Source: Deltaproteobacteria bacterium (GTDB lineage: Bacteria; UBA10199; SBBF01). Taken from it: 35,939 nucleotides of DNA. The notes under the pieces were generated by a model. It saw nothing but the letters and a program-made list of their open reading frames with translations, had not been told where the DNA came from and searched no databases. Position 1 is the first letter of the stretch. The number at the start of each line of letters is the position of its first letter. Positions 14,803 through 28,792 of this stretch are shown piece after piece. The DNA is taken from contig JACPFC010000042.1 of assembly GCA_016183175.1 (NCBI GenBank), forward strand, positions 1 through 35,939, read 5' to 3'. The translations under genes were made by a program, and so were the position numbers.

Positions 14803-15065
14803 GTAACAATTCAGTTTCGGGTGGATGTCTTGAGGTTCCATCGGCTGTCTGAGCGTGGCTATCAAATCGGGGGCTTTACCGCTGGCGCCCCCGCACCCCC
14901 TGTTCGCTCGCGCGGAATAAATCCGTCGCTCGCTCACCAGCGAGCAAAGCGAGCGAGAGGGGGAGGCTCCATCCGGCTTTGCCGGTGGAGGGGGCGACGC
15001 GAGCCCCTGTGATAACCCGCGAGTTCCGATGGAACCGAAAGCAGACACCGAGACTGAATTGTTAC
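14803..15065. mobile_element. MITE-like element with 40-bp imperfect terminal inverted repeats
   Basis: The left end GTAACAATTCAGTTTCGG... (14803-14844) is matched by the reverse complement of the right end (15026-15065). The outer 18 bp match at 17 positions, and a second block GGTTCCATCGG is perfect. No transposase is encoded. The interior is rich in smaller palindromes (for example GGGGGC...GCCCCC near 14870-14900) and contains the 71-bp repeat at 14938-15008. I see no clear target-site duplication. Confidence 0.65.
14938..15008. repeat. 71-bp dispersed repeat, intergenic copy
   Basis: Identical over all 71 bp to 27975-28045. The core is a hairpin CTCCATCCGGC-TTT-GCCGGTGGAG, preceded by a CGAGCAAAGCGAGCGAG word. 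Confidence 0.95.
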
Positions 15066-15077
15066 GAGACCGGAGAT

Positions 15078-16538
15078 TTAACCTTTGATAACCCCGATCG
15101 GCTTGAGTTGGGCGACGATTTTGGCCAGCCCCGCGTTTTCGACGACCCGGACAACCTGCGCGACATCTTTATAAGCCTCGGGGATTTCCTCGCCGAGGGT
15201 CCGGTAGCTGTCGGCCTGGACAATCACGCCACGCTCTTCCATCTCCCGCGCGACGTTCCGGCCACGAACGCCTTTAAGCGCCCTGGTCCGGCTCATCAAC
15301 CGTCCGGCGCCGTGGCAGGAAGAGCCGAAGGCCTCCTCAAACGCTTGACCGGTGCCGACCAAGACATACGAATAGCGCCCCATGTCGCCGGGAATCAAAA
15401 CCGGCTGGCCCGTTTTCTGATACGCCTCCGGTGTTTCCGGGTGCCCCGGCGGAAACGCCCTTGTAGCCCCCTTGCGATGGACACAGACCATCCGTTCTTT
15501 CCCGTTGATCGGATGTTTCTCCATCTTTGCGATGTTGTGGCAGACGTCGTAGATAACATTCATCCCCAGCTCGCCGTCGCTTTTTTTAAAGACATGTGAA
15601 AAAACGCGCCGGACAAGATGGGCGATCACCTGCCGGTTGCCGAAGGCAAAATTGGCCGCGGAGGCCATGGCCGCCAGATAGTTTTTTCCTTCGTTCGACC
15701 TGACCGGCGCACAGCAGAGCTGGTTGTCGGGGAGTTCGATGCCGTATTTTTGCGCCGCCTTGAGCATGATCCCCAGATTGTCCTCGCAGGTCTGATGGCC
15801 GAGACCGCGCGAGCCACAGTGGATGGACACGCAAATCTGATTTTGAAAGAGGCCCATCTGTGAGGCTGTATTTTCGTCAAACACCTGCGCCACATATTCG
15901 ATTTCCAAAAAATGATTTCCGGATCCGAGCGTTCCGAGCTGGTCCTGCCCCCTTTTTTTCGCCCGCAATGTGATCAAATCGGGATCGGCGTCGGGAATGC
16001 ACCCCTTCGCCTCGAGATGCTTGATATCCTCGCTGTCTCCGTATCCCTGCTCAATCGGCCAGGCGGCCCCTTTGACGAGGAGTTTTTTGTAATCGCTTTC
16101 CGACAGACGGGGAAATGTCCCGCTGGAGCCGACGCCGGAGGGAACTTTGTGAAAAAGGGCGCCGACCAACGTTTTAAGTTCCGGCTTGACCTCGTCGTGA
16201 GTCAAATTGCTTCGCAAAAGACGGACGCCGCAGTTGATGTCGTAACCGACACCGCCGGGAGAGACGACCCCTTCGTTCAGATCAAAGGCGGCGACTCCGC
16301 CGATGGGAAATCCGTAACCCCAGTGGATATCGGGCATTCCGATGGAGGCCTTGAGAATCCCCGGAAGGGTGGCGACATTCGTTATTTGCTGAAGACACAT
16401 GTCACCCCTAAGTCCTTCATAAAGGATTTCATCGGCATAGACAATCCCGTCCACCCGCATTGCCCCCTGTTTGGGGACGCGGACGCGGTTGGCGTCGATG
16501 CGCTCGACAGTACCTGTAAATTTCTGTTCAGACATCAA
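15078..16538 (-). CDS. rtcB: RNA-splicing ligase RtcB
   Basis: The 486-residue Mn2+- and GTP-dependent ligase joins 2',3'-cyclic phosphate or 3'-phosphate RNA ends to 5'-OH ends, in tRNA splicing or RNA repair. Visible are GVGYDINCG with metal-binding Cys103, GTLGSGNHFLEI, SIHCGSRGLGHQ, and VHRKGATRAFPPG, whose His354 corresponds to the guanylylated histidine. The C-terminal SCHGAGRLMSR is also typical. The start is ATGATG at 16538/16535 and overlaps the archease gene by about 11 nt. The two form a two-gene operon, as expected for enzyme and activator. Confidence 0.96.
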   Translation of the reverse strand: MMSEQKFTGTVERIDANRVRVPKQGAMRVDGIVYADEILYEGLRGDMCLQQITNVATLPGILKASIGMPDIHWGYGFPIGGVAAFDLNEGVVSPGGVGYDINCGVRLLRSNLTHDEVKPELKTLVGALFHKVPSGVGSSGTFPRLSESDYKKLLVKGAAWPIEQGYGDSEDIKHLEAKGCIPDADPDLITLRAKKRGQDQLGTLGSGNHFLEIEYVAQVFDENTASQMGLFQNQICVSIHCGSRGLGHQTCEDNLGIMLKAAQKYGIELPDNQLCCAPVRSNEGKNYLAAMASAANFAFGNRQVIAHLVRRVFSHVFKKSDGELGMNVIYDVCHNIAKMEKHPINGKERMVCVHRKGATRAFPPGHPETPEAYQKTGQPVLIPGDMGRYSYVLVGTGQAFEEAFGSSCHGAGRLMSRTRALKGVRGRNVAREMEERGVIVQADSYRTLGEEIPEAYKDVAQVVRVVENAGLAKIVAQLKPIGVIKG

Positions 16539-16950
16539 AGATCACCCTTGCCTTCCATTTACCCCCCTCCTGCCAAACTTTCAGCTGATGATACGTCACC
16601 GCCTTGATTCCCGTCTTGATCTCATGCCTCTTCGAATCGATCTTCTCGCCACGCACAACCACAGTCAATCCGTTCTCCTGAAAACGGAGGCGGACAACCT
16701 CCGAATAGAATTCATGCTTCACCTCGAAGAGATAAAGGAGTTCGTTTAACAGGGCCTGCAGAAGATGCGCGGGATTGTCGCGAATGACCGCAATCTTTCT
16801 TTCAACAACCGGCTTGACGCTCTTTATATCGCAAATCAGATCGCAAAAGGCCCGGGCCGCCTTCGAGAACAATGCCTCCTTCGCACCGGCCGTGACCTCG
16901 ATGCCGATATCGGCGGTGTGATCGATGAGTTGATAAAAATTCCTTGCCAT
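16528..16950 (-). CDS. Archease, activator of RtcB
   Basis: The 140-residue protein belongs to the archease family, which speeds RtcB guanylylation and broadens its nucleotide use. Typical features are the N-terminal LIDHTADIGIEV, the internal LLQALLNELLYLFE, and the C-terminal GIKAVTYHQLKV with RVIFDV at the very end. The gene directly precedes and overlaps rtcB. An AAGGA lies about 11 nt upstream of the ATG. It is divergent from the histone gene, with an 84-bp spacer. Confidence 0.95.
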   Translation of the reverse strand: MARNFYQLIDHTADIGIEVTAGAKEALFSKAARAFCDLICDIKSVKPVVERKIAVIRDNPAHLLQALLNELLYLFEVKHEFYSEVVRLRFQENGLTVVVRGEKIDSKRHEIKTGIKAVTYHQLKVWQEGGKWKARVIFDV

Positions 16951-17034
16951 TTTTGTAAAAATCCTTAAATTTGACGGCGTTTCCGCGTTGCCACCGGACC
17001 GACAGACATATCTTATCGTAAAGAAAGGATTTTT

Positions 17035-17223
17035 ATGAGTGAAATTATTGTTGTGGCCTCCAAGATCAAAAAACTCATCAAGGAAAAGGGGGATTGCAAC
17101 ACCTCCGCATCCACCATGGAGGCCTTGACCCAGAGGGTGATCCAGCTCATCGAGAAGGGGATCGAGGCCGCCAAGGCGGACAACCGCAAAACGGTGATGG
17201 ACCGCGATATCCCGAATATCTAG
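17035..17223 (+). CDS. Bacterial histone (single histone fold)
   Basis: The 62-residue protein has the layout of a minimal histone fold. A short first helix (about residues 8-18, ASKIKKLIKEK) and a loop GDCNTS come first. A long central helix (about 22-46, ASTMEALTQRVIQLIEKGIE) follows, then the RKT loop of strand L2 and a short third helix beginning MDRDI. NRKTVMDRDI matches the L2-alpha3 signature (RKTVxxxDI) of archaeal histones. Size and sequence type agree with bacterial histones such as Bd0055 of Bdellovibrio. It lacks the tails of eukaryotic histones. The ribosome-binding site GAAAGGA is 5 nt from the ATG, suggesting efficient translation. It probably acts as a nucleoid protein; the DNA-binding mode cannot be read from sequence. 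Confidence 0.85.
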   Translation: MSEIIVVASKIKKLIKEKGDCNTSASTMEALTQRVIQLIEKGIEAAKADNRKTVMDRDIPNI

Positions 17224-17311
17224 TGCAACTGCGAGAAATCAGAGAGCAGAAAGCCGAAATCAGAAAGCGGATTACATCGTCTGCCATCTGCTTTCCGCTC
17301 TCTGCTATCCA
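17224..17311. repeat. Inverted word repeat between the histone and regulator genes
   Basis: AGAGAGCAGAAAGC on the left pairs with GCTTTCCGCTCTCT on the right, with further CAGAAAGC words between. It separates two convergent genes and could form a hairpin at both 3' ends. Confidence 0.6.
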
Positions 17312-20300
17312 CTATCTCGCTTTTGCCAATCCTTCCATCTTAGGTCTTTTGCTTTTTAGCCACTGATAAAACGTCGCCGGAGAGACGCCAAGCCTCCGGG
17401 CGGCAAGGTAAGGATGCTCCTCGCTTAAAGTAAAAGCGGCGTGGAAGACCTGATGTTTCAGCGTGTCCAAAAGGGTCCCCTCTCGATACCGAAAGGGAAT
17501 GGAGTCCAGCTCCCCCTTCCGCTGTCTGAAGCGTTCGCGCCGGAGGCGATTGTAGAGGGTCGCGATGCCGATGCCCAGCGACCGCGCCGCCCGCGACACG
17601 TCAAACCCTGTTTCCAAAAGCGACTTGGCAAAAATGATGTTTTCGATATCTCTCCACGTTTTTTGTTCCTGAAGAAATTTTTCGATGAATTGGACTGTTT
17701 CTGCGCCCCCCTCTTCCATCCCGTCCTTCGGACAAGGCGAACCCTCCTTTCCTTTTTTTCCGATCCCTTGCAACACCTGTTTGTCCCCTTCCGGGAGATT
17801 GCCCGGATCAAGAACTTTGCCGTCGGATAGGGCGCAGGCCACCCGCACCCGGTTGGCCAGTTCACGGACGTTGCCGGGCCAGTCATGCCCGACAAAAAGA
17901 CGCAGGAATTCTTTTGAAACGGAAGGGGCCTTTTTGCGGCCATGCTCTTTGGCAAACTCCCGTGCGAAGTGAGAGACCAACAGCGGAATATCCTCGCGGC
18001 GATCGCGGAGAGGCGGTAGAGCGAGTTCGACCTCGGCGATCCGGTAATACAAATCGTCCCGGAAGCGCCTTTCGGCCATCTCATGCCTCAAGTTCTTGTG
18101 CGTGGCCGAGACAATCCGGACATCGATGGGGATCGGTTTTGTATCTCCGAGCCTCAAGATTTCCCTCTCCTGCAAGGCCCGCAAAAGCTTGGCCTGAAGG
18201 GAAAAATCCAGCTCGCCGATTTCATCCAGAAAAAGGGTACCGCCGCCCGCCATTTCAAAAAGTCCCGGCTTGTCACGCATGGCGCCCGTAAAGGCCCCCG
18301 CCTTGTAACCGAACAGTTCCGATTCGATCAGAGGAACCGGAAGGGCGCCACAATTGATCGCCATAAAGGGCCGACCGGCCCGCGGGCTGTTTTTGTGAAG
18401 CGCCCGTGCCACCAGCTCCTTGCCGGTCCCCGACTCGCCCCGGATAAGCACCGAAAGATTCGTGCCCGTCACACGGTCCAAAAGGGCGAAGATTTTTTCC
18501 ATCGCCGGGCTTTGCGTGACCATCCCGGCGTACGAATAACGGGTCTCAAAACTTTTTTCGCGGAGAATGGTTTTATAGGTCTCGATGCTTTCCTCGGCTG
18601 TATTGAGGCGCCCGGCCAACCGCCGGTTCTGTTCCTCGATTTTCCGGTTCAGCCGGGCATTGTTGATGGCCAGCCCCGCCTGATCGGCAAAGACCCGCAT
18701 GACACCGGCGATCCGCTCATCGAAAAGCGCCGTCTGAAACCGGTGCGTCAGATAAAGAACGCCGATCACCTTGCCGCCGGCGCCAATCGGAAGACAAAAG
18801 ACCGATTTAAGCCCCAAAAGCAGAACCGAGCGGTAATTCTTGAAGGCCGGATCGGCGGAGGCGTTGTCGGAGCGGAGCGGCTTTCCGCTTTTCAACACTT
18901 CCTGCGCCGTTTTTCGGCTGATCTGTGAAAGGTCGTCATCCACATCGATATTGCGCGCCGATGCAACGGACAGTTCCCCCCTCTCGTCCGCCAGCAAAAC
19001 CAGTCCGCTCTCGGCATTCGAAAGGCTCAATGCATACTGCAAAACCAGATTCAAAAGGGTTTTCAAGTCGCGTTCGGTTCCCAGAAGGGAGTTGATCTGC
19101 AAAACGGCAAGGAGGGGATCAACCAACGGGCGAACACCCACGGGATGCGGTTGGATTTCCTGAATTTCCTTCTTTGGCTCCGGTGGCACCGGCCCTGCCG
19201 GCGCCGGCGCCAGGGGCACTGCCGACGCCGGCGGCGCCGCCGACGCCAGTGGCGCCGCCACCTCGAACCGGGAGAGGGTCGGATCGACCGGCGAGCGCTT
19301 TCGCAAAAATTCGAGGCGCGTCTTCTGTTCGTCGGTTTTGGCGTGATAGAGAAGGTCGGGATAGAGGCGCGCGAAGTCCTCGCCGCGGTTTTCGTCCAGC
19401 AAAAGAGAGGCCTGCGAGTTCAGCACCCAGAAGACAAACCCCTCCAGCCCCTTTTCATGCAGAACCAGCTGGGAGGCCTGTCCGAAAAATTCGCGGGCCT
19501 TGTCGAAATTTTTCCTCTGGCGTTCGATCTCCCCCAATTCGAGAATTGCCCGCGCCTTTAAATAACGGAGATGCGGGCTTGTCTCCTCCACCTGTTTGAG
19601 CAGTTGGAGCGAGAGGTTCAGGTTTTTTTCCGCCGCCCCGCTTTGCCCCAGCTCCTGTTGGATGACCCCCATGTTTTGCGCCACGGCCGAGGCGGCCCCC
19701 CAGTCTTTGAGGTACCGTGAGAGATCGAGCGCCCGCTGGTAATTGGAAAGGGAGCGATCGGTTTTTTTGAGAATATTGCAGGCATTCCCCAGTCCGTTGT
19801 AGGCCCGGAGCAGAAGGTCCCACTGCCTTTCTTCGCGCGCCCCGTCCGCCGCCGCCTCATAATGCCCGATGGCCTGGGAGGGATCGCCGCTCTTCAACAG
19901 ACATTCCCCCAGGTTGTAGCGGCACCGGTTTTTGAAGGAACGGTCGGAGAGTTTTTCATAGAAACCGAGCCTCGCCTTCAAAAATTCCGCCGCCTTCGCG
20001 TACTCCCCCTTCTGCATAAGCGCCATGGGGAGGTCGTTGTTGGTCACCCGGCGCTGTTCTTCCCCGTTCAAAAGCTTTTTCCACTCGCGTTCGGTCTTTT
20101 CAAATATCTCCACCGCCTTGTCGATTTGTCCCTCGCACATAAGGACAAAGGCGTGGTAATTCCGGATGCGAAGGGATAAAACAAGAGGGGGCGGATTCAA
20201 TTCCTCCAGAAGACCGAGCGCCACCTCCAGTTCTCTTTTGGCGCCGTCGAAATCCTCTTCGCGGATCGATTTCCACCCCTTTTTTTCCAGAAGGGCGATC

Positions 20301-22057
20301 CGCAGTTTGAGACGGTCGTCCCCCAGGGGGAGCCGCCCGATCAGATTTTCCACCTCGCGAAAAAGAGAAGGGATCGTCCCCCACGCCCCCTTGTCAAGGG
20401 GACCCTGCCCCGAGCGGGCGAGATGGAGTTTTTCATCGCAGATTTCGATGAGCAGTTCAGCCTTTTCGAGCGGCTTCTCGTCGCCGAGGCGCGAGGCCAA
20501 CTGCTCGCGCTCGGAGGGGGTCATTGGAAGGAGGGCATAGTCGAGGGCCGCCCCTTCGCGAAAGGGGGCGAGATTCCATTCGCCGTGAGGCCCCAAAAGT
20601 TTGCCGGCCCGGCAGAGAGCCCAAAGGAGAGAAACGGTCGTCCCCGCGTGCCCCTTTGTCTCCGCGTAGAGGGCAGACACGAAGATATCCGGGGGATTTT
20701 CGTCGCGGGTCGAAAGGACGATCAGCTCCCGCACATCGTCGCGAGTCATCGCCTCCAGGGTTGCCGATTCCGCCGGGATGGAATGTTCCACGGCCCATTG
20801 TCCGGCCTTTTCCGCTTCGCCGGGGAGAAGGGCGACAATCCCCCGCCAACCTCCTCCGGACAAGGCTTCAAGCCCCGCGGGATCGAAGCGATTCAGGTCG
20901 ATCAAAAAAATCGTCTCTGCGGGCATTCGCGCATCCGTCGAGGCGCAATCGGTCCGCACCGGAACCCCTTTGAGTTCCAGTTCGTAGCGGATTTCGTGTA
21001 TGAGCCGCGTTTTGCCGATCCCCGGTTCTCCATAAAGAAAAAGAAGCCCGGCCCCTTTTTTTGCTTCCACCCATCGGCGAATCGCCTCCAGCGTCTTTTG
21101 CCGGCCAACCCATTTTTCGGAAATGAGTATCGCCTGCGGCGCCGCCTCGCGGGGGAGCCCTTTTTCGGAATCGATTTCGGCCAAAACCTCGCCGGCGGTT
21201 CGATGCCGGTCGCTCGGATTTTTTTCCAGCAGTCTGACGAGAATCCGGTTTAACCAGGGGGGAATGGCGCGGTTCAGCGCCCCCGGCGCCGGCGGCGCCA
21301 CGGCGACCTGCGCCTTGAGCGTCTCCGAGGCCTTGTCGCGGGTGAAAGGATTGGTCCCCGTCAGACATTCAAAAAAGGTGACCCCAAGGGAATAGAGATC
21401 GGCCCTTTCGTCCACCGCCTCGTTCAACACCTTTTCGGGGGCGAAATAGGAGGGCGTTCCGGCAATCAGTTGAAATTTCGGATGGGCGATGCCGAGGTCG
21501 AGAATTTTGATTCGGGGCGTAGCCTTCGCCTTGTCGATCACGTAGATATTGGAGGGCTTGATGTCGCCATGCACCGCCCCCGCCCGGTGAATGGCCTCCA
21601 GCCCTTCGAGGCACTGGATGAGCAGGGCTTCCGCCAAGGCAACATTGAGGTCTTGCGAAGAAGTTGGCGGACTCCTGGGAGTTTCATCCGGGCCATTTGG
21701 CGGGCGCTGTGCCCGCCACGCATTATTGGAGGGGCCCTGCCGCCTGAGGAATTCATCGAGCGGCATGCCGTCAATCAGTTCTTCGGTAAAGTAGAGGGCT
21801 TCGATATCGCGGTCCCAGCCGAAATCGCCGATTCGCACCACCGCCGGATGGCTGATATCTTTTAAAAGAGAAAACTCAAACCGGAACGCCTCCACCCAGG
21901 CCTCCCCTTGTGCGCGCTGATACGGCTTTTTAAGAAGCTTGAGCGCCCAGGTTTCCCCTCCCCTTTTGACCCGATAGACCTTCGCGAAACTCCCTTCCGC
22001 CAAAAGGGCCTCAACAACGAACTGATGGTCGATTACTTTTGGATGTCTCTCTTCCAT
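17312..22057 (-). CDS. Giant Ser/Thr kinase - NTPase - TPR - GAF - sigma-54 AAA+ - HTH regulator
   Basis: The 1581-residue protein fuses a whole signalling cascade. Residues 11-295 are a Hanks-type kinase: glycine loop, Lys40, catalytic HGDIKPSN (HRD changed to HGD, Asp165), DLG at 187-189, APE at 206-208. Residues 315-520 form a STAND/ORC-like NTPase with Walker A GEPGIGKT (343-350). About 570-920 is a TPR array. 930-960 is a Pro/Ala linker. About 975-1135 is a GAF domain. 1175-1405 is the sigma-54 AAA+ domain with GESGTGKE, GAFTGA (1254-1259), Walker B LFLDE and an arginine-finger region. Two Fis-like HTHs follow (1470-1510 and 1530-1573). It should therefore open sigma-54 promoters in response to signals. 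A repeat-derived insert occupies kinase residues 109-136. A promoter TTGATA-N17-TATAAT lies 15 nt upstream. Confidence 0.93.
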   Translation of the reverse strand: MEERHPKVIDHQFVVEALLAEGSFAKVYRVKRGGETWALKLLKKPYQRAQGEAWVEAFRFEFSLLKDISHPAVVRIGDFGWDRDIEALYFTEELIDGMPLDEFLRRQGPSNNAWRAQRPPNGPDETPRSPPTSSQDLNVALAEALLIQCLEGLEAIHRAGAVHGDIKPSNIYVIDKAKATPRIKILDLGIAHPKFQLIAGTPSYFAPEKVLNEAVDERADLYSLGVTFFECLTGTNPFTRDKASETLKAQVAVAPPAPGALNRAIPPWLNRILVRLLEKNPSDRHRTAGEVLAEIDSEKGLPREAAPQAILISEKWVGRQKTLEAIRRWVEAKKGAGLLFLYGEPGIGKTRLIHEIRYELELKGVPVRTDCASTDARMPAETIFLIDLNRFDPAGLEALSGGGWRGIVALLPGEAEKAGQWAVEHSIPAESATLEAMTRDDVRELIVLSTRDENPPDIFVSALYAETKGHAGTTVSLLWALCRAGKLLGPHGEWNLAPFREGAALDYALLPMTPSEREQLASRLGDEKPLEKAELLIEICDEKLHLARSGQGPLDKGAWGTIPSLFREVENLIGRLPLGDDRLKLRIALLEKKGWKSIREEDFDGAKRELEVALGLLEELNPPPLVLSLRIRNYHAFVLMCEGQIDKAVEIFEKTEREWKKLLNGEEQRRVTNNDLPMALMQKGEYAKAAEFLKARLGFYEKLSDRSFKNRCRYNLGECLLKSGDPSQAIGHYEAAADGAREERQWDLLLRAYNGLGNACNILKKTDRSLSNYQRALDLSRYLKDWGAASAVAQNMGVIQQELGQSGAAEKNLNLSLQLLKQVEETSPHLRYLKARAILELGEIERQRKNFDKAREFFGQASQLVLHEKGLEGFVFWVLNSQASLLLDENRGEDFARLYPDLLYHAKTDEQKTRLEFLRKRSPVDPTLSRFEVAAPLASAAPPASAVPLAPAPAGPVPPEPKKEIQEIQPHPVGVRPLVDPLLAVLQINSLLGTERDLKTLLNLVLQYALSLSNAESGLVLLADERGELSVASARNIDVDDDLSQISRKTAQEVLKSGKPLRSDNASADPAFKNYRSVLLLGLKSVFCLPIGAGGKVIGVLYLTHRFQTALFDERIAGVMRVFADQAGLAINNARLNRKIEEQNRRLAGRLNTAEESIETYKTILREKSFETRYSYAGMVTQSPAMEKIFALLDRVTGTNLSVLIRGESGTGKELVARALHKNSPRAGRPFMAINCGALPVPLIESELFGYKAGAFTGAMRDKPGLFEMAGGGTLFLDEIGELDFSLQAKLLRALQEREILRLGDTKPIPIDVRIVSATHKNLRHEMAERRFRDDLYYRIAEVELALPPLRDRREDIPLLVSHFAREFAKEHGRKKAPSVSKEFLRLFVGHDWPGNVRELANRVRVACALSDGKVLDPGNLPEGDKQVLQGIGKKGKEGSPCPKDGMEEGGAETVQFIEKFLQEQKTWRDIENIIFAKSLLETGFDVSRAARSLGIGIATLYNRLRRERFRQRKGELDSIPFRYREGTLLDTLKHQVFHAAFTLSEEHPYLAARRLGVSPATFYQWLKSKRPKMEGLAKAR
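21652..21733. repeat. In-frame palindromic insert in the kinase domain
   Basis: The block contains GGCGGGC-GCTGT-GCCCGCC (21699-21717) and a second small palindrome ACTCCTGGGAGT. It encodes about 27 Pro/Ser/Asn-rich residues between RRQG and LNVALAEALL, where related kinases have a short loop. Confidence 0.65.
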
Positions 22058-27529: not shown

Positions 27530-27734
27530 GCAAAGTCTTCGACTTTGCTACGCAGGCAAGCCAAGCTTGCCTTTGTGGGCCAGTTGTGAGCGCTGGGTTT
27601 GGTCCGCCACAAAGTTTGGCGGACGAAATCCACGACGCGAGTCAAGCCTAAGCTTTGCTTAGGCGCGAAGCAAATTCGGAGTGAAACGGAGAATTTGCGG
27701 AGTAAAAATAGCATCAAACGGGCCGAAAGGGCCC
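27530..27734. repeat. Array of six consecutive perfect hairpins upstream of the aldo/keto reductase
   Basis: Stems: GCAAAGTC/GACTTTGC (27530-27548), GGCAAG/CTTGCC (27555-27571), GTCCGCCA/TGGCGGAC (27602-27624), GCCTAAGC/GCTTAGGC (27646-27664), GCAAATTC/GAATTTGC (27670-27698) and GGGCC/GGCCC (27720-27734). Several loops contain CTTTG or its complement. It fills most of the 295-bp spacer, in which no gene is seen. Confidence 0.85.
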
Positions 27735-27742
27735 CAACTCTA

Positions 27743-28792
27743 ATGAACTATCGGACGCTTGGACGAACAGGCCAAAAGGTCTCCGAAATCGGGCACGGCA
27801 CCTGGACAATGGGGAGCATGTGGGGGCCGCGGGATGACAAAGCGGCGCTCGATTCGCTCGTCCGCTCGCTGGAGCTGGGAGTCACCTTCATCGACACGGC
27901 ATGGGTTTACGGCGATGGACACAGTGAAGAGTTGATCGCCAAAGCACTTAAAGAGTTCGGATTTGGAAATTTAACAGCGAGCAAAGCGAGCGAGAGGGGG
28001 AGGCTCCATCCGGCTTTGCCGGTGGAGGGGGCGACGCGAGCCCCTTTAATAGCCACCAAATGCCCCCCGAAAAACTTCGGGTGGCCCGCCCGGCATCATG
28101 TGCCTGTCGAAGAGACCTTTCCGCCGGAGCATGTCGTCAATTACACCGAAAAAAGCCTGAAAAATCTGCGGATGGATTGCGTGGACCTGCAACAACTTCA
28201 TGTCTGGTCGGACAACTGGCTTGAAAAACCGATCTGGCTTGAGGCGGTTGAAAAACTGAAAAAACAGGGGAAGATCCGTTATTTTGGCGTTTCCATCAAC
28301 GACCACGAACCGGATAGCGCCTTGAAAATCGTCGCATCGGGCCTGATCGACAGCGTGCAGGTGATCTACAATATTTTCGATCAGACCCCGGAGGAAAAAC
28401 TCTTTCCCCTCTGCCAAAAACACAACGTGGCGGTGATCGCCCGCGTCCCCTTCGATGAAGGCTCGCTGACCGGATTGCTGACTCCGGAAACACAATTTCA
28501 CAAAGGCGACTGGAGGCAGAAATATTTTACGCCGGACCGTCTGAAGGAGACCTGCACCCATGTTGAAAAACTTAAAGTTCTCATCCGCGGCGAAATCAAA
28601 ACGCTCTCGCAGGCGGCATTGAAATTCTGCCTGTCGCAGGCGGCCGTTTCAACCGTTATTCCCGGTATGCGGACGGTCGCACATGTGGAAGAGAACAGCA
28701 AAGCCTCCGATGGTCTTTTGCTGACGGAACAGGAACGGACCGAGCTGAAAAACCATGCCTGGCCCCGCAACTTTTACCCAACGTATGGCTAA
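27743..28792 (+). CDS. Aldo/keto reductase with in-frame repeat insertion
   Basis: The 349-residue TIM-barrel oxidoreductase has the AKR tetrad: Asp51 (FIDTA), Tyr56 (WVYGDG), Lys106 (IATKCPPK) and His153 (QLHVW). The C-terminal NADPH-binding block appears as LKFCLSQAAVSTVIPGMRT. Residues 78-102 (TASKASERGRLHPALPVEG and on) are not family sequence. They are translated from the 71-bp dispersed repeat and lie between Tyr56 and Lys106. Removing 75 bp restores GNLIATKCPPK. The start ATG lacks a good ribosome-binding site and follows a hairpin array. The stop overlaps the start of nfo. Substrate unknown. Confidence 0.9.
   Translation: MNYRTLGRTGQKVSEIGHGTWTMGSMWGPRDDKAALDSLVRSLELGVTFIDTAWVYGDGHSEELIAKALKEFGFGNLTASKASERGRLHPALPVEGATRAPLIATKCPPKNFGWPARHHVPVEETFPPEHVVNYTEKSLKNLRMDCVDLQQLHVWSDNWLEKPIWLEAVEKLKKQGKIRYFGVSINDHEPDSALKIVASGLIDSVQVIYNIFDQTPEEKLFPLCQKHNVAVIARVPFDEGSLTGLLTPETQFHKGDWRQKYFTPDRLKETCTHVEKLKVLIRGEIKTLSQAALKFCLSQAAVSTVIPGMRTVAHVEENSKASDGLLLTEQERTELKNHAWPRNFYPTYG
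27975..28045. mobile_element. 71-bp dispersed repeat inserted in-frame in the aldo/keto reductase, with 5-bp target duplication
   Basis: All 71 bp are identical to 14938-15008. TTTAA occurs directly on each side (27970-27974 and 28045-28049), so element plus one duplicate is 75 bp, or 25 codons. No protein is encoded that could mobilise it. Confidence 0.85.

Follow-up and report, generated by a model that had tools for sequence, protein, structure and literature searches.

The 35,939-nucleotide stretch of DNA analysed here (the window) carries a gene for a 62-residue protein which is almost certainly an α3 histone of the HBb type, the bacterial dimer class. The protein is probably an HBb-like dimeric histone that bends DNA independently of sequence and is abundant in the nucleoid. 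For the window protein itself, dimerisation, DNA bending, abundance and the nucleoid role are inferred by analogy with HBb/Bd0055 of Bdellovibrio bacteriovorus, its solved counterpart (PDB 8FVX, 8FW7, 8CMP, 9EZZ and 9F0E).

The histone gene and its homologues

The histone gene (17035..17223, +) is an open reading frame of 62 codons with the ATG at 17035 and the TAG at 17221-17223, in exact agreement with the initial annotation, and its translated product is MSEIIVVASKIKKLIKEKGDCNTSASTMEALTQRVIQLIEKGIEAAKADNRKTVMDRDIPNI (62 aa). The good ribosome-binding site claimed there was found as a Shine-Dalgarno-like, purine-rich AAAGAAAGGA (17020..17029, +) located 5 nt ahead of the ATG. The codon usage of the gene is nearer to that of rpsB, tsf and frr than to that of the remaining genes in the window (p 0.0006, with the window as background), a modest hint since this reference is a small set of three window genes and third-position GC may explain part of the signal. 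Together, the ribosome-binding site and the codon usage suggest high expression.

In a phmmer search against the PDB, the HBb/Bd0055 chains were matched at E values of 2.3e-18 to 2.6e-18 over residues 1-59 without gaps, with 37/59 residues identical to HBb, confirming the proposed single-fold bacterial histone of the Bd0055/HBb type. The histone HLp was matched at E 2.5e-4, and archaeal histone chains did no better than E 0.1-0.5. The BLAST score to HBb was 76.6 bits, versus at best 25.0 bits for shuffled copies of the window protein (2,000 copies made, any alignment in 1,728). Searching public genomes by tblastn gave 23 related loci with identity up to 81%, mostly in Bdellovibrionota and 'Deltaproteobacteria' metagenome-assembled genomes (MAGs), with one in Anoxychlamydiales and one labelled Myxococcales. 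Compared with its three nearest relatives, the window gene differs mostly at third codon positions; dN was 0.13-0.18 across the three pairs. Two of these had dN values of 0.16-0.18 with dS of 1.08 and 1.35, and in the remaining pair dS was saturated. The gene is under purifying selection.

The HMM check against histone-fold families, which the initial annotation had proposed, gave matches to the Pfam and NCBIfam models, all below the curated cut-offs: 17.5 vs 21.4 bits for PF00808, 13.6 vs 26.4 bits for PF00125 and 27.9 vs 50 bits for NF043032. Routine annotation using those models would therefore leave the reading frame unnamed. In the host's own genome, a PF00808 search returned nothing at threshold, and the protein query recovered both histones described here, indicating that the PF00808 model is too insensitive for α3 histones of this kind.

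Assignment to the bacterial dimer class

According to the available text of PMC11390915, the bacterial dimer α3 class was defined by sequence clustering; its members are HBb-like, with an RKTxxxD motif and α1 lysines, and without the R and N through which FtF histones assemble dimers into tetramers. In the window protein these FtF residues, R48 and N52 in HMM numbering, are replaced by A45 and D49, which groups it with the bacterial dimers and rules out the FtF class. The ZZ class is ruled out as well, since the chain begins at the histone fold. In a phylogenetic tree with many weak forks, the window protein was placed with the histones of two genomes of its class (G006 and G001), near HBb and outside the well-supported FtF/HLp group.

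Of the ten HBb residues that contact DNA (T8, S9, K10, K12, T23, S24, A25, K52, T53 and R57), nine are kept. The exception is T8, one contact in the HBb-DNA_2 crystal form (PMC11317129), which is A in the window protein and likewise in most dimer-type relatives of its class. The contact residues S9-K10 and K12 (PMC11317129) are situated in helix α1 (residues 2-19; 17038..17091, +), and T23, S24 and then A25 at loop L1 (residues 20-24; 17092..17106, +), followed by helix α2 (residues 25-48; 17107..17178, +) with the dimer-core residues L31, V35 and L38. Residues R51-K52-T53-V-M-D-R57-D58 (17185..17208, +) comprise the KT motif of loop L2, the RD clamp and R57, and by homology to HBb a short α3 is expected within the same segment. 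The claimed signature NRKTVMDRDI thus holds R51-K52-T53 and D58; by spacing the D of the class motif is D56 or D58, both of which are invariant in our 18-row alignment (A1). In a six-frame translation of the 36-kb window, the RKTxxxRD motif is found a single time. The α1 lysines K10, K12 and K16 are also invariant in alignment A1, as is S9. The RD clamp R51/D58 is retained with its helper D49, and the dimer core V11/L31/I35/L38/I59 of HBb reads I/L/V/L/I here, all changes being conservative.

The window protein therefore resembles HBb in its length, gap-free alignment, DNA contacts, RD clamp with D49 and lack of the FtF tetramer residues, but differs by A for T8 and V for I35, by its C-terminus (IPNI, against an IIIDHI-like tail in the Bdellovibrionota relatives), and by its host, which belongs to a separate lineage and also has an FtF-type histone. 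HLp of Leptospira perolatii (PDB 9QT0), a bacterial FtF histone of the same α3 superfamily, forms tetramers and wraps about 60 bp (PMC12701072); its R and N correspond to A45 and D49 of the window protein. Archaeal nucleosomal histones of the HMfB type have the histone fold, the RKT motif and the RD clamp in common with it, but unlike it they possess a longer α2 and a full α3 and form hypernucleosomes. ZZ histones, such as those of Bdellovibrio and Haliangium, have a related histone domain preceded by an N-terminal zinc-binding ZZ-type domain, which is absent from the window protein.

Structure model

An AlphaFold2 monomer, built from the 18-row alignment and modelled without a partner chain, had a pLDDT of 77 and a pTM of 0.50. 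At this moderate confidence it has two helices, at residues 2-19 and 25-48, and lacks a third, so that of the three-helix pattern described initially, α1 and α2 were recovered and the third helix follows from homology to HBb. Since α3 of HBb is a single turn (PMC11317129) and the model has no partner, the model provides weak support, and the three-helix claim is made by homology. In a Foldseek search against the PDB, HBb chains took the top five places, with HTkC and HLp next. Superposition on HBb gave a TM of ~0.59 and an rmsd of ~5 Å, indicating that the monomer model is unreliable in its helix packing.

Genomic neighbourhood

Upstream, an 84-bp intergenic region (16951..17034) that includes the histone ribosome-binding site separates the histone gene from a divergent archease gene (16528..16950, −; PF01951, E 1.8e-39), in tandem with the gene for RtcB RNA ligase (15078..16538, −; PF01139, E 1.5e-173). 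One weak sigma-70-like match (16944-16971, mostly intergenic) scored near the shuffled expectation. The archease-RtcB pair is found beside the histone in three genomes examined of the family (the host's own, G001 and G002), and G002 keeps the order tsf-rpsB-TPR-RtcB-archease-histone-kinase/regulator. G006, which has an 81%-identical histone, lacks this neighbourhood. A functional link between the histone and archease-RtcB was accordingly rejected except as a weak rival, the synteny being confined to the family. The contig also carries rpsB, tsf, pyrH, frr, uppS, cdsA, dxr and rseP-like genes, named by reading their translations; these core bacterial genes around the histone are a strong argument against archaeal contamination.

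Downstream, a strong hairpin (17224..17325, +; −40.5 kcal/mol, z −6.1) is located where the histone and kinase/regulator genes converge. Its 87-bp core recurs at ~10 genomic sites with 73-85% identity, and the hairpin is a dispersed palindromic repeat. It could also end transcription of both genes. The kinase/regulator gene (17312-22057, −) encodes a protein of 1581 aa in which Ser/Thr kinase, ATPase/TPR, GAF and sigma-54-activator regions and a Fis-type end were recognised by eye, and it adjoins the histone in G002 too.

A separate 78-bp repeat is present at 27977-28054 and 14940-15017 (96% identical), and additional partial copies occur on other contigs. The former copy falls within an aldo/keto reductase-like gene (27599-28792) and in its reading frame, to which it adds ~26 codons around NLTASKASERGRLHPALPVEGATRAPL; the arrangement is reminiscent of the in-frame palindromic elements of Rickettsia.

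Second histone and other nucleoid proteins of the genome

The same genome encodes a second histone, MAKGSKKEALVVASKVRAYIKSKKCMTSSDAIAAISDKVCCMLDTAIARTRANRRSTVKPQDL (63 aa; locus L025, contig C40:24037-24204, −), which is far closer to HLp of Leptospira (E 1.9e-16) than to HBb (E 0.017-0.036). It carries both FtF tetramer residues, R and N, and its sequence points to an FtF-type, HLp-like histone. A MutY-like A/G glycosylase gene, recognised by eye, lies just downstream of it. Four genes of the HU/IHF family were also found. With a ZZ histone as query, no ZZ histone was detected in this genome, the search returning only the window gene, through its histone half, and a chance match at E 0.06. 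Another candidate on contig C72 (E 0.37) was set aside as a chance match within a 623-aa frame.

Histones across the class

The initial annotation had stressed that bacterial histones are shown in few lineages. Such histones are by now recorded from several phyla (PMC10627809, PMC11390915), so that one more histone is unsurprising in itself. A broad survey put histones in 1.86% of bacterial genomes (PMC10627809). Within the class of the host, by contrast, an α3 histone was detected in 40 of 46 genomes (E <= 0.001) and in 27 of the 29 good-quality genomes (>= 90% complete, <= 5% contaminated). Types were assigned to the matches retrieved by the R/N positions and an upstream cysteine motif, and the counts are lower bounds as the assemblies are fragmented: at least 21 genomes have a dimer type, at least 23 an FtF-like type (a label that denotes the two residues plus similarity, not a modelled tetramer) and at least 5 a clear ZZ type. 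One genome counted under the dimer type, G011, has a ZZ-like histone domain without a recognised ZZ domain. A match at G016:C14:140885 was discarded, as it falls within a long frame resembling DNA polymerase I.

Dimer-type and FtF-like genes occur together in at least nine genomes (G000, the host's own, and G001, G002, G006, G009, G012, G016, G020 and G037), and G006 has all three types, dimer, FtF-like and ZZ. Among these incomplete assemblies, 12 genomes showed the dimer type only and 12 the FtF-like type only.

Five ZZ-type histones of relatives (L063, L051, L056, L069 and L076) all have an MGRD variant of MDRD (5/5), and that of L063 gave no Pfam match to either domain.

The available text of PMC11390915 places bacterial dimers mainly in Bdellovibrionia, with some in other phyla, and FtF histones in Bacteriovoracia and others. 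No statement on both types in one genome was found in the passages of the literature searched, supplementary tables aside, and our literature search found no paper linking histones with the label UBA10199, the GTDB group to which the lineage probably belongs.

Proposed role and alternatives

HBb is an essential protein that binds throughout the genome with no specificity and bends DNA (PMC11317129), and it was the most abundant protein of the nucleoid fraction (PMC10627809). On this model, the 62-residue chain would fold as helix-loop-helix-loop-short helix, and two chains would pair antiparallel via α2. The dimer would hold the DNA backbone, without sequence preference, by the start of α1 (S9, K10, K12), by loop 1 (T23, S24) and by loop 2/α3 (K52, T53, R57), and would bend DNA as an abundant nucleoid protein beside the four HU/IHF proteins. 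Much of the work in the nucleoid could, however, fall to these four proteins and to the second histone.

The initial annotation held that the Bd0055 binding mode differs from archaeal wrapping. That mode is itself contested: the first study of the protein recorded end-on sheathing of straight DNA in vitro (PMC10627809), against bending via interfaces like those of other histones (PMC11317129). The same dimeric histone might coat straight DNA end-on as a sheath without bending it, in keeping with that in vitro mode and with the conserved HBb interface residues K12, T23, S24, K52, T53 and R57. We regard this as unlikely, because another HBb crystal form has a second interface via T8, S9 and K10 and bending was seen in solution and in simulation (PMC11317129), and because the invariance of S9 and K10 in the 18 aligned histones suits use of both interfaces. 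With K12 also invariant, these residues favour two-face use and lean towards bending, although they cannot decide the matter.

Other readings concern what the dimer is for. A role as a low-abundance DNA-binding regulator, specialised or local in its action, instead of one as a general nucleoid protein, would fit a genome that already has four HU/IHF genes, and the adjoining archease-RtcB pair, RNA-repair machinery conserved in the family, might be taken in the same sense. This is distinctly improbable given the good ribosome-binding site and ribosomal-like codon usage, the loss of the neighbourhood in G006 and the lack of specificity of HBb itself (PMC11317129). It is more improbable still that the protein serves mainly as partner of the C40 histone in heterodimers or mixed complexes, like the paired eukaryotic histones: both genes are in the same genome, and at least nine genomes of the class combine the two types, but the 12 dimer-only and 12 FtF-like-only genomes indicate, within the limits of incomplete assemblies, that neither seems to need the other. 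A spurious reading frame or archaeal contamination could be suspected in an assembly of 137 contigs with sub-threshold Pfam and NCBIfam scores, but this explanation has next to no credibility and is refuted by synteny and conservation: the contig carries core bacterial genes, gene order is kept in G002, orthologue changes are dominated by synonymous ones, and the closest solved relative is bacterial and far ahead of the archaeal histones.

The gene adds to the range of HBb-type histones a MAG lineage labelled 'Deltaproteobacteria', where histones are the rule. Taken alone, it is an ordinary representative of a family already characterised, and the wider interest lies in the near-universal, multi-type histone content of the lineage. 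We tentatively consider it possible that, in this near-universal-histone lineage, some cells divide the work on chromatin between bending by an HBb-type dimer and wrapping by an HLp-type tetramer, in addition to HU/IHF. A genome that holds both HBb-type and HLp-type histones is a natural system for studying how bending and wrapping histones share a bacterial chromosome.
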